Source of the DNA: Pleomorphomonas sp. PLEO
Lineage (GTDB): Bacteria; Pseudomonadota; Alphaproteobacteria; Rhizobiales; Pleomorphomonadaceae
Length of the DNA: 64,000 nucleotides
NCBI RefSeq assembly: GCF_041320595.1
Contig: NZ_CP166625.1
Span: 3,160,001-3,224,000, forward strand
Reading direction: 5' to 3'
A program made the position numbers and the translations under genes. Positions within the stretch are counted from its first letter, which is position 1, and each line of letters starts with the position of its first letter. The notes under the pieces were generated by a model. That model was not told where the DNA came from. It worked only from the letters and a program-made list of their open reading frames with translations, and did not search any database. Below are positions 33,518 to 38,883 of the stretch, piece after piece.

Positions 33518-33676
33518 GCTTTATCCTCGAGCGTGCCGATCATTGCTGATTGTCGCTGGTCGCTGGCTTGCAACGGGGCACGGGACGAGTGTCCGTCGAC
33601 TTTCGGAAAGAATGGGCAGGTTTAGCTTCCCCTGGGGGACAGCGACGCCTCGGTGAACTGCCGACCGAACCCTTCC

Positions 33677-36120: not shown

Positions 36121-37512
36121 TCAATCGAGCCACCCGGCGAGATCAGACAGCGCGCGTCGGCAAATTGCTTGCCGCTTTGCGATGGTCTTCTCATGACCGC
36201 GTAGCCTCTGGCCGGGTTCGCGTGGCACCTCGATGGGCGGGAAGAGTCCGAAATTGACGTTCATCGGCTGGAAGGACCGTGGGGTGCCCTCCGTCTCGGC
36301 GGAGATGTGACCGCCGGTGATATGGCCGAGAAGGGCGCCGAGAGCGGTGGTTGGTGGTGGCGGAACAGCTTCAGTGCCAAGCCGTTCGGCCGCGGCGAAG
36401 CGCCCGGCCAGGAGGCCGATGGAGGCCGATTCAACATAGCCTTCACAACCGGTCACCTGCCCTGCGAATCTGAGGCGCGGCGCCGCCTTGAGACGGAGCA
36501 CCGGATCCAGCAGGCGCGGACTGTCGAGATAGGTGTTGCGGTGAAGGCCGCCGAGTCGGGCAAATTCAGCTTTCTCGAGGCCTGGGATCATGCGGAAAAT
36601 GTCGGCTTGGGCGCCGTATTTCAGCTTTGTCTGGAAACCGACCATATTATAGAGCGTGCCGAGCGCATTGTCCTGACGGAGCTGAACAATGGCACAGGAC
36701 TTCACCATCGGGTCTCGTGGGTTGGTGAGGCCTACCGGCTTCATCGGTCCGTGGCGCAACGTTTCACGGCCCCGCTCGGCCATCACCTCGATTGGCAGGC
36801 AGCCATCGAAATAGGGTGTCTTCTCGAAATCCTTGAACTCGGTCTTGTCGCCGGCGATCAGGGCATCGACGAAGGCTTCGTACTGATCCCGGTCCAGCGG
36901 GCAGTTGATGTAGTCGGCACCGGTACCACCAGGGCCGGGCTTATCATAGCGTGACTGGAACCAGGCTTTGTCCATGTCGATGCTGTCGAAATGGACGATT
37001 GGCGCGATGGCGTCGAAGAAAGCAAGCGAAGCGGCACCGGTGGTGGCGCGAATGGCATCGGCGAGCGCCTTCGAGGTCAGTGGGCCGGTGGCGAGGATCA
37101 CATCGCCCCAATCCTCAGGCGGCAGGCCGTCGATTTCTCCCTCGGCCACCGTGACCAGCGGATGAGCGCGCAGCGTAGCGGTGACCTTCTCCGAAAATGC
37201 CTCACGATCAACGGCCAGGGCGCCGCCGGCTGGAACCTTGTTGGTGTCGGCCGAGCTCATGATCAACGATCCGGCGCGGCGCATTTCCTCGTGCAGCAGA
37301 CCGACGGCGTTGTTCTCGTGATCGTCGGAGCGGAAGGAGTTGGAGCAGACGAGTTCGGCAAAACCACCGGTCTTGTGTGCTTCGGTACCGCGATGCGGCC
37401 GCATTTCATGGAGGACGACGGGGATGCCGCGAGACACGAGTTGCCAGGCAGCTTCCGAGCCGGCAAGGCCGGCGCCGACGATATGAACGGGAGCGAGGGG
37501 CTGTTGGGTCAT
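36121..37512 (-). CDS. trmFO: TrmFO, folate/FAD-dependent tRNA U54 methyltransferase
   Basis: TrmFO makes ribothymidine at tRNA position 54, using methylenetetrahydrofolate and FADH2. The 463-residue flavoprotein begins with the FAD site [17 protein letters not shown], then [29 protein letters not shown], which is diagnostic of the family. The C-terminal region with [13 protein letters not shown] is complete. I chose MTQQPLAP as the start; 113 preceding codons in the same open frame run backwards into the hairpin array and are not coding. It lies just downstream of that array on the same strand. Confidence 0.95.
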
Positions 37513-37624
37513 GGCGGGGGGATAGCACGTCCGCTGCGTGCATGCAGCGGTTTTCCTGACCCTTCCCGGATAATGGAAGGGCTGGTCTGAGGGCGCTGAT
37601 CCGGGGATACCTCCAAAATGCAAA

Positions 37625-37654
37625 CGCCCACCGGGGGAGGAGATCCGGTGGGCG
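37625..37654 (-). ncRNA. CcsR-type hairpin 9, doubling as terminator
   Basis: Perfect 10-bp GC-rich stem CGCCCACCGG/CCGGTGGGCG; motif at 37635-37642, TCTCCTCCC variant. On the minus strand TTTGCATTTT follows, so this last unit probably ends the transcript. Confidence 0.85.
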
Positions 37655-37664
37655 CTGCAATTTT

Positions 37665-37699
37665 CTGTAGACGGCATGGGAGGAGGTATGCCGCTACAG
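37665..37699 (-). ncRNA. CcsR-type hairpin 8
   Basis: CTGTAG/CTACAG and CGGCAT/ATGCCG stems with a single bulged A; motif at 37678-37685. Confidence 0.88.
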
Positions 37700-37703
37700 C
37701 TAA

Positions 37704-37733
37704 CCTGCGATGCGGGAGGAGGTGCATCACAGG
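37704..37733 (-). ncRNA. CcsR-type hairpin 7
   Basis: CCTG/CAGG and GATGC/GCATC stems with one mismatch between; motif at 37714-37721. Confidence 0.87.
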
Positions 37734-37738
37734 ACGAC

Positions 37739-37764
37739 CGCAGCAAGGGAGGAGGATTGCTGCG
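37739..37764 (-). ncRNA. CcsR-type hairpin 6
   Basis: Perfect 8-bp stem CGCAGCAA/TTGCTGCG; motif at 37747-37754. Confidence 0.88.
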
Positions 37765-37770
37765 ATCAAA

Positions 37771-37805
37771 CCGACAATGCCCAGGGAGGAGGAAGGGCAG
37801 GTCGG
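37771..37805 (-). ncRNA. CcsR-type hairpin 5
   Basis: CCGAC/GTCGG and TGCCC/GGGCA stems; motif at 37784-37791. Confidence 0.87.
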
Positions 37806-37823
37806 TACTCACAAATCCGGCGA

Positions 37824-37852
37824 AATGGTCCTGGGAGGAGGAGTAGACCATT
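37824..37852 (-). ncRNA. CcsR-type hairpin 4
   Basis: Perfect 7-bp stem AATGGTC/GACCATT with a larger 15-base loop; motif at 37833-37840. Confidence 0.87.
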
Positions 37853-37864
37853 GTCGCCTAACAG

Positions 37865-37890
37865 AAAGATGGGGGAGGAGAACCATCTTT
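37865..37890 (-). ncRNA. CcsR-type hairpin 3
   Basis: Perfect 8-bp stem AAAGATGG/CCATCTTT; motif at 37873-37880, TCTCCTCCC variant. Confidence 0.88.
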
Positions 37891-37893
37891 CCA

Positions 37894-37932
37894 AGACACC
37901 GGCCGGAGGGAGGAGGAACCGGCAGGGTGTCT
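37894..37932 (-). ncRNA. CcsR-type hairpin 2
   Basis: AGACACC/GGTGTCT and GCCGG/CCGGC stems around the motif at 37908-37915. Confidence 0.88.
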
Positions 37933-37940
37933 ATCAGGGT

Positions 37941-37976
37941 CGCCGCGGAACTGGGAGGAGGATAGTTCGGCAGGCG
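37941..37976 (-). ncRNA. CcsR-type hairpin 1 in transcript order
   Basis: Outer CGCC/GGCG and inner GAACT/AGTTC stems; loop motif at 37953-37960 (complement CTCCTCCC). Confidence 0.85.
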
Positions 37977-37993
37977 AGCCTAATCTCTTTGGC

Positions 37994-38152
37994 TCAGAGC
38001 GTAGCCTTGCGGGCGACGTTCGAGATCTCACCGCGGGAGATGCCCAGGTCGGCAAGCTCGCGAGTGCTCAGACGGGAGAGCTCGCGATAAGTCTCCTGGT
38101 ACTTGCGGTAGCTACGGAGCTTGTTGACAACGGTGTCCAGCATTTCATTCAT
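37994..38152 (-). CDS. DUF1127 small protein (CcaF1-like) heading the hairpin array
   Basis: A 52-residue basic protein, MNEMLDTVVNKLRSYRKYQ followed by the DUF1127 core YRELSRLSTRELADLGISRGEI. In Rhodobacter a protein of this family (CcaF1) is encoded just before the CcsR RNAs, is co-transcribed with them and affects RNA processing; this is recalled family knowledge. The stop is 17 bases before the first hairpin here, so one transcript is likely. The ribosome site is weak. The open frame continues upstream for 121 codons without coding character; MNEML gives the normal family length. ATG at codon 4 is an alternative start. Confidence 0.88.
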   Translation of the reverse strand: MNEMLDTVVNKLRSYRKYQETYRELSRLSTRELADLGISRGEISNVARKATL

Positions 38153-38883
38153 CCATTCGGGTTGTGAGGCGCTGCGCTCTTCAGTCTTTCGTCTGCTGCG
38201 CTTCGCTCTCGACACACAAACATTTAGGGGAACGAGCCATGCGGGGCTAGAGGGGGGGCTGCATGTCTGGAATGCAGTTTTCGCACGGCAGCATTTGGAG
38301 CTGGGAAAGTTAACTTTGCGGAAGGCAGAATGCGGCTGAAATGCGACTTTAGACGGGGGTATGGTCGTTGATTTGCCGTTATCTAGAGCTGATGAGGGCG
38401 TTTTTGAGGTGATATGCTCAGAATGAAGCCAATGTTGCGGTGCAGCATAAACCTCCGCTAAAACCCACCGAAAGAAATTTTGAATATGGGAGACGGTTAT
38501 GGAAGGCAGGGGCATGGTTTGGAAGGTCTCAAAAATCTCTACGTGAATGCCCTTATGGTCCTCGGCCGTTTTTCCGGATGCGCCTCGTGAGTCAGGCCCT
38601 GGGTTGAATCGTTTTCGCCACGGGCGCGTTTTCCCATGGACGAATTCTGGATTATGACACCGTTGTCATGGATAAAACTGCTATTTGGGGAAAGTGGCGG
38701 TCTTACACGGCGAAGCGGTGTGCCGCGCCGACAATAAGCCAGCCCCAGAGGCGGCCGGCCTCGTTGCGCTTGAGCGCTCATATGAAGCGGCCAGAGAACC
38801 GCGACTGTGGGGCTGGCGAGTCGTTAGCCTCATGGGCAGTCGCGCGCTTCGAACCTTTTCCCGGTGCGCGCCTGATCGACTGC
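38153..38883. other. Long intergenic region upstream of the DUF1127 gene
   Basis: About 730 bases between the DUF1127 gene and the L,D-transpeptidase, both minus strand. It must hold the promoter of the DUF1127-hairpin transcript, but I see neither a clear RpoH (CTTG...) nor an EcfG (GGAAC...CGTT) element on the minus strand. A palindrome ATGACA-CCGT-TGTCAT (38654-38669) looks like an operator. Long-range AGCCCC/GGGGCT pairing near 38740-38815 may end the transpeptidase transcript. I found no supported gene. Confidence 0.4.

Follow-up and report, generated by a model that had tools for sequence, protein, structure and literature searches.

Genes and hairpins at the locus

The window, by which we mean the whole 64-kb stretch of DNA analysed (G000:C1:3160001-3224000), comes from a genome assembled as a single 5.48-Mb contig. 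On its minus strand, a short DUF1127 gene is followed by nine hairpins (37984-37619) and then by trmFO. The features are listed in gene order, in window coordinates, with hairpin limits as folded.

37994..38143, minus strand, DUF1127 gene, 49 aa (PF06568, E 1.9e-13); start kept in 17/17 rows of upstream alignment A2
37933..37984, minus strand, hairpin 1; loop word 37960-37953
37894..37932, minus strand, hairpin 2; loop word 37915-37908
37863..37892, minus strand, hairpin 3; loop word 37880-37873
37815..37862, minus strand, hairpin 4; loop word 37840-37833
37770..37806, minus strand, hairpin 5; loop word 37791-37784
37736..37767, minus strand, hairpin 6; loop word 37754-37747
37704..37733, minus strand, hairpin 7; loop word 37721-37714; first of three in the Rfam ar14 match
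37665..37699, minus strand, hairpin 8; loop word 37685-37678; in the ar14 match
37619..37659, minus strand, hairpin 9; loop word 37642-37635; in the ar14 match; presumed terminator, tail GTTTGCATTTT
36121..37512, minus strand, trmFO (NF003739, 669.8 bits), downstream neighbour of the array

The word CTCCTCCC occurs nine times, exactly, on the minus strand from 37960 to 37635, once in each hairpin loop, and no further copy was found on either strand of the window. Genome-wide it occurs 136 times on both strands, giving an expectation of about 0.004 per 352 bases of one strand; it is rarer in this genome than the reversed control word (136 vs 205). Every loop word has its own stem of 10-18 pairs, and the single hairpins follow one another every 33-49 nt. 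An earlier note, made from the sequence alone, had reported nine hairpins with a common loop word behind a DUF1127 gene, and both the array and the gene were recovered. Its claim of a 9-mer in every hairpin holds for the 8-nt word (9/9) but not for the full CCTCCTCCC, which is intact in seven of nine units, with TCTCCTCCC in units 3 and 9. The 17-base gap it placed after the gene is correct from its own array boundary; as folded, nine bases separate the DUF1127 stop (37994) from the first hairpin (37984). The T-rich tail it saw after hairpin 9 is present but weak, and a simple scan called no terminator there.

The DUF1127 gene has an additional in-frame ATG at 38152, and its protein matched no NCBIfam family at E 0.001. 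Two weaker DUF1127 matches lie in G000:C1:4954439-4955016 (at 4954439 and 4954945; 25.7 and 25.6 bits, cut-off 23.3); neither place has a hairpin row, and one nearby CTCCTCCC folds poorly. No second triple-word array was found in the genome, and a single other two-word pair lies at G000:C1:4767151 (the reversed control also gave one). Elsewhere in the window, an Rfam COG3860 RNA motif (33614-33667, minus strand, 73.4 bits, gathering score 42.5) lies just past the 3' end of an ORF that, by reading of its sequence, resembles a GGDEF-EAL protein.

Structure, strand and age of the array

Folded alone, the minus strand of the array reaches a minimum free energy of -166 kcal/mol (z -11.9), and the plus strand has a z of -7.2. 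Covariation was assessed on 12 aligned orthologous arrays, with the structure taken from RNAalifold on that alignment and seven pairs dropped. Paired cells amounted to 95.8%, and 30 of 108 pairs had changed on both sides, compared with 7.3 in shuffles and 1-13 with the partners slid. G-U cells outnumbered A-C cells (64 vs 7), favouring the minus strand as the RNA strand, in a count that used the minus-strand-folded structure and is biased toward that strand. Invariant columns made up 65/72 of the loop word, 101/216 of paired and 26/107 of other positions, and hairpin 9 was the best conserved (11 of 14 counted pairs invariant). The earlier note's reading of a selected minus-strand RNA structure, whose stems differ in sequence yet still pair, thus stands, and the pairing whose loss in homologous loci it had named as a refutation is kept across the 12 arrays.

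Stem bases were 26% identical between different units of one genome and 77% identical between units at the same position across genomes, leading us to reject recent tandem duplication for this array. Against each of the two most distant members, 7/9 units of this array found their closest counterpart at the same position. Since the likeness between stems of different units is not above chance level, the array is old and does not represent a fresh expansion. We conclude that the array is real and old, and that its structure is selected and likely that of a minus-strand RNA. As a guess, selection may have kept the stems unrelated so that the units fold independently and are not lost by recombination.

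Membership in the cuckoo/αr14/CcsR family

The Rfam family ar14 (RF02344) matched 37739-37619, covering hairpins 7-9 only and scoring 78.9 bits (gathering score 58.8). Cuckoo/CIN1 loci are described as adjacent hairpins with a conserved loop motif, unconserved stems and a DUF1127 neighbour (PMC4504443, PMC10253847, on Reinkensmeier and Giegerich 2015). All of these are found here: adjacent hairpins with the loop CCUCCUCCC, stems that vary while staying paired and, as in the CIN1/ccaF1 operon, a short same-strand DUF1127 gene immediately upstream. The array therefore belongs to the cuckoo/αr14/CcsR family, in agreement with the cuckoo/CcsR-type layout and anti-Shine-Dalgarno loops proposed in the earlier note.

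The locus differs from described members in several respects. The cuckoo family is described with 2-4 hairpins per member (PMC4504443), whereas nine are present here. The ar14 family (SmelA075/NfeR1), whose member NfeR1 is LsrB-activated, has three hairpins; here six more stand before them, behind a DUF1127 gene. The ccaF1-CcsR1-4 operon of Rhodobacter sphaeroides shares the DUF1127 gene and the cluster of hairpin RNAs, with cotranscription reported there and pyruvate dehydrogenase among the affected functions. Its four CcsR RNAs lie behind ccaF1 (PMC10253847), and RS0680a has two stem-loops (PMC3927594), from which we infer about eight stem-loops for that operon. Many loci of mostly Rhodobacteraceae have alternating spacing, unlike the even single hairpins here, and RpoHI/RpoHII are named for the R. 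sphaeroides operon (PMC10253847), whereas a sigma-70-like promoter with a LysR box is predicted at our locus.

A search of 12 further sources with ar14 matched L161, L110, L008 and L014 (the present locus again); the array-bearing L113, L122, L038 and L035 gave no ar14 match. A single family whose members differ in module number has been proposed (PMC3927594), and because long arrays also occur in many loci, hairpin count draws no clear family boundary. Among the members of this known sRNA family, the array is long, old and well preserved.

Distribution and length of related arrays

A pattern of three successive loop words matched 13 of 14 genus genomes, and 12 of the 14 carry nine colinear hairpins (family Pleomorphomonadaceae, with Oryzibacter oryziterrae counted as a genus member). 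In genome G006 (89% complete), a small contig bears four hairpins, and G007 (86% complete) gave no array match. In the G006 locus (L009:450-780), the DUF1127 frame runs straight into a hairpin spacer, from a deletion or an assembly fault. Loci in other genera of the family have 8, 9, 4, 4 and 8 hairpins, and one 86%-complete genome from these genera lacked a triple-word match. This is the comparison of unit number in relatives that the earlier note had asked for. Across the order, the triple word matched in 102 of 397 genomes, and the reversed-word control in two rows.

We looked for trmFO downstream of the array in 25 loci and found it in 22, namely every genus and family locus, Oryzibacter, Mesorhizobium L049, Aurantimonas L091 and L102, and Pseudaminobacter L110. 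It was not found in the stretch covered of Fulvimarina L106, R. aestuarii L122 and Wenxinia L113, and Fulvimarina L106 is the only tested Hyphomicrobiales locus without it. Because of this synteny and the array counts, the locus looks orthologous within Hyphomicrobiales, with a varied number of hairpins.

We then ran a pattern designed for long arrays against named genomes, counting chains of hairpins (stem of at least 4 pairs around CTCCTCC, gaps up to 90). The resulting set of at least 118 loci was selected for length and therefore gives a range, not a frequency. Among the matches listed, 67 of 118 loci have at least five hairpins (5-17), 28 have at least nine, one of these being Oryzibacter itself, and the largest array, in Wenxinia marina, has 17. 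Three-hairpin arrays account for 34 of the 118 listed, and some loci, from other phyla, reflect chance clustering of the word. The earlier note had called nine units an extreme expansion, a description we rejected in view of the 28 listed loci with as many or more.

A DUF1127 gene lies upstream in 63 of the 67 listed loci with at least five hairpins and in 27 of the 28 with at least nine; in 56 of the 63 its stop falls 18-39 bases before the first loop. Of the four listed loci with at least five hairpins and no DUF1127 gene, L157, at least, is truncated by the locus edge. In all, 30 of the 118 listed loci with at least three hairpins have no detected DUF1127 gene, some of them cut at the edge or resembling chance word clusters (e.g. 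L072, L111, L144).

Some arrays are built differently. In Pseudaminobacter arsenicus (L110:1612-2048), three tandem ar14 matches (nine hairpins) stand behind a DUF1127 gene and upstream of trmFO; recent tandem duplication may fit this tripled unit, unlike the nine unrelated stems of the window. The Tropicimonas array (L121:7483-8000), near the locus end, has at least 14 hairpins with a repeating spacing of 38/32/38/40 and looks like a recent block duplication. In many arrays of mostly Rhodobacteraceae (L090, L129, L159), short and long spacings alternate (about 40/70), that is, the hairpins come in pairs; the window's family is more evenly spaced.

An LysR-type box and a predicted promoter

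Upstream of the DUF1127 gene, alignment A2 pointed to the following elements.

38281..38294, minus strand, VtlR-like box ATGCTGCCGTGCGA, kept in the genus rows of A2; resembles the VtlR motif CAATGCAGCCATGCA (PMC12595884)
38263..38275, minus strand, LsrB-type box GCATTCCAGACAT, seen in A2; consensus GCAT-N3-TG-N3-T (PMC8844928)
38245..38250, minus strand, putative -35 CTAGCC, 17 bases before the -10
38222..38227, minus strand, putative -10 CTAAAT, from the upstream alignment

The LsrB consensus GCAT-N3-TG-N3-T is reported at -61 to -49, before CTTGAC-N17-CTATAT (PMC8844928). Here, the box likewise lies near -60 of a putative promoter that matches CTTGAC-N17-CTATAT at 9 of 12 bases, and transcription would start near 38215. 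A scan with the TTGACA/TATAAT consensus gave no sigma-70 site. The 12 genus rows of A2 share a conserved block, approximately ATGCTGCCGTGCGAAAACTGCATTCCTGACATGCA, followed by CTAGCC-N17-CTAAAT or near variants, and the other five family rows retain parts of it. At the box position, 12 of 17 family loci carry GCAT-N3-TG-N3-T forward and three on the opposite strand (this genome, G014 and G019); the forward box of this genome is one base off the consensus, which fits only on the other strand. The box is lacking in the four-hairpin G016 and G018. A looser VtlR pattern, ATGCWGCYNTGCNA, has three matches in the genome, as does its reversed control.

We compared three upstream motifs, all picked after viewing sequences or papers, between groups of loci (background in brackets; all figures outside the family are among the matches listed). 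GCAT-N3-TG-N3-T occurs in 15/17 family loci (5.6%) and 11/13 other Hyphomicrobiales (3.9%), and in only 16/59 other DUF1127-linked loci, mostly Rhodobacteraceae by title (2.2%). The VtlR core with at most one mismatch occurs in 13/17 (8.7%), 12/13 (4.2%) and 49/59 (0.7%) of the same groups. The third motif, TGCA-N6-GCAT, through which LsrB activates the ar14 member NfeR1 (PMC10746234), occurs in 3/17 (0), 10/13 (0.4%) and 54/59 (1.2%), and in 17/25 arrays without DUF1127 (4.9%). Upstream regions were incomplete for 7/66 of the other DUF1127-linked group and 5/30 of the group without DUF1127, again among the matches listed. In those listed loci, the VtlR core lies on the minus orientation in 49/49 of the mostly Rhodobacteraceae group vs 11/12 on the plus in other Hyphomicrobiales. 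An RpoH promoter expression with two patterns, perhaps too strict, matched 0/59 of the listed mostly Rhodobacteraceae loci.

An LsrB homologue adjoins trxB in this genome (447.8 bits to 9HH1, an A. tumefaciens LsrB entry). Box type, box position and the lsrB-trxB pair resemble the VtlR/LsrB regulon (AbcR RNAs, DUF1127 genes, NfeR1), in which DUF1127 genes and an anti-Shine-Dalgarno sRNA are among the reported targets; binding in this genus is a prediction. In S. meliloti, LsrB is reported to have no action on AbcR RNAs (PMC7486931), contrary to PMC8844928. Sixteen chosen named genomes each have one LsrB homologue below E 1e-40: those of eight Hyphomicrobiales are 60-91% identical and all beside trxB, and those of eight Rhodobacteraceae are 46-49% identical and none beside trxB. 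LsrB has been called unique to Rhizobiales (PMC11975290). The literature surveyed contained no link between LsrB/VtlR and CcsR/CcaF1, and further literature may describe one; PMC12501420 and PMC11089165 name both sides, with LsrB or a LysR-type word appearing in the reference list only.

Predicted targets of the loop

The complement of the loop, GGGAGGAG, stands 2-11 bases before an ATG at 28 places in the genome, and the reversed pattern at 4, an excess expected for any Shine-Dalgarno word. One of the 28 sites lies inside the array itself. Twenty sites start ORFs of at least 100 aa, 17 of which have a Pfam match: six substrate-binding proteins, an ABC ATPase (two domains), a GlcNAc-epimerase-family protein, an RpiR-type regulator, glycerol kinase, two xylulokinases, a sugar-porter MFS protein, a Gfo/Idh oxidoreductase, two xylose-isomerase-like TIM barrels and pyruvate dehydrogenase E1 alpha (TIGR03182, 519 bits). 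By our own classing of the family names, all 17 would serve sugar or carbon uptake or metabolism.

We compared these candidates with a 400-kb sample of 360 genes. Binding proteins were enriched (6/20 targets vs 3/360 sampled genes, one of the three possibly being target L188 itself; p 7e-7), as were FGGY kinases (3/20 vs 0/360; p 1e-4), and the ABC ATPase class was not (1/20 vs 12/360). A broader test of any target-like class (17/20 vs 17/360) was set aside as circular, because the classes came from the targets. Among 27 sampled genes with a GGAGG site, a small control, there was one binding-protein family match and three ABC_tran; in 130 genes that lack GGAGG, no binding-protein family was among the 25 commonest. 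Genes with strong Shine-Dalgarno sites may be enriched for uptake genes regardless.

Candidate sites were also looked at in other genomes. In Rhodobacter aestuarii, 16 of 24 ORFs were annotated, including RuBisCO large chain, transketolase, acetyl-CoA synthetase, DctP, TctC and sugar-binding proteins, with two of unknown function. In S. meliloti 4H41, 10 of 16 were annotated, all in uptake or catabolism. In G016, which has four hairpins and no box, the four annotated of 13 ORFs were an ABC permease, a histidinol-dehydrogenase-family protein, a hydrogenase maturation protease and a glycosyl hydrolase, which make a weak case for a sugar theme. The ORFs of G016, G398 and G400 were chosen for annotation by eye (4/13, 16/24 and 10/16) and are illustrations, not counts; for G400, 24 loci out of 80 sites were examined. 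Most candidate targets of NfeR1 are ABC transport systems, according to the literature on that RNA, and work on CcsR reports an effect on the pyruvate dehydrogenase complex and names flhR as a target (PMC8307010).

Discussion

Our starting points are the array with its structure and age, the operon layout, the box, the LsrB homologue beside trxB and the enrichment of some target classes, all of them established here. We consider it probable that the locus is a DUF1127-cuckoo operon of the CIN1 type, supplying anti-Shine-Dalgarno sRNAs in a dose set by a LysR protein and thereby throttling carbon intake. A sigma-70-like promoter beside the LsrB/VtlR-type box would start one transcript encoding the arginine-rich DUF1127 protein and carrying the nine hairpins. 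By analogy with ccaF1-CcsR1-4 of R. sphaeroides, where cotranscription and processing are described (PMC10253847, PMC8625941), RNase E and the DUF1127 protein would cut its tail to stable hairpin sRNAs. The exposed CUCCUCCC loop would serve as an anti-Shine-Dalgarno arm, pairing with GGGAGGAG at start regions and lowering translation of carbohydrate uptake and catabolism genes and of pyruvate dehydrogenase. With nine loops, each transcription event would yield a high dose. Control by LsrB is proposed by analogy with work on S. meliloti, A. tumefaciens and Brucella, and pairing and repression of the targets by analogy with NfeR1. We infer transcription and LsrB binding at this locus, as well as a purpose for the unrelated stems, which would let every hairpin fold independently.

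The loops might instead bind a protein, be it the DUF1127 protein itself, Hfq or a ribosomal factor, and not mRNAs. Many identical loops would suit such a decoy, CcaF1 is described as an RNA-binding protein acting in CcsR maturation, and CcsR interacts with Hfq (PMC10253847, PMC8307010). However, the loop exactly complements a strong ribosome site, and one broad functional class covers the annotated genes that carry this site here, which makes a protein sponge unlikely.

An action purely in cis, in which the array, as a stable 3' UTR, would shield the DUF1127 mRNA or terminate transcription and yield no separate sRNAs, is in our judgement rather improbable. The array does begin nine bases past the stop codon and close with its best conserved hairpin, but a stabiliser needs no invariant 8-base loop, and the loop columns are the most conserved part. 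Moreover, arrays with no detected DUF1127 gene exist (the 30 of 118 listed loci described above, some of them edge-cut or chance clusters), and NfeR1 acts in trans (PMC10746234). That the region is coding or a plain repeat with no RNA function is scarcely credible: a 115-aa plus-strand ORF spans nearly the whole array, a minus-strand ORF that shares the frame of trmFO begins within it and 5 of 15 arrays can be read without a stop in at least one frame, but the other 10, this one included, have no such frame on either strand, and the stems covary.

Returning to the carbon-throttling operon, we offer more tentatively a broader version, which we regard as possible though on balance doubtful. An LsrB/VtlR-class LysR protein would be the common switch of DUF1127-cuckoo operons across Alphaproteobacteria, including Rhodobacteraceae, and hairpin number would set the gain of a redox-to-carbon throttle, the dose of anti-Shine-Dalgarno loops cutting carbon uptake and entry into central metabolism.

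Three aspects may be new: the breadth of long arrays, an apparent family of LysR boxes in DUF1127-linked arrays from mostly Rhodobacteraceae, and the predicted sugar-and-pyruvate-dehydrogenase class of perfect 8-nt complements at start sites. The published picture of 2-4 hairpins understates the cuckoo RNA family, and such arrays can persist unit by unit over a genus. A testable link would join LsrB/VtlR, the DUF1127 proteins, whose role is uncertain, and anti-Shine-Dalgarno sRNAs with predicted targets in sugar uptake and pyruvate dehydrogenase.
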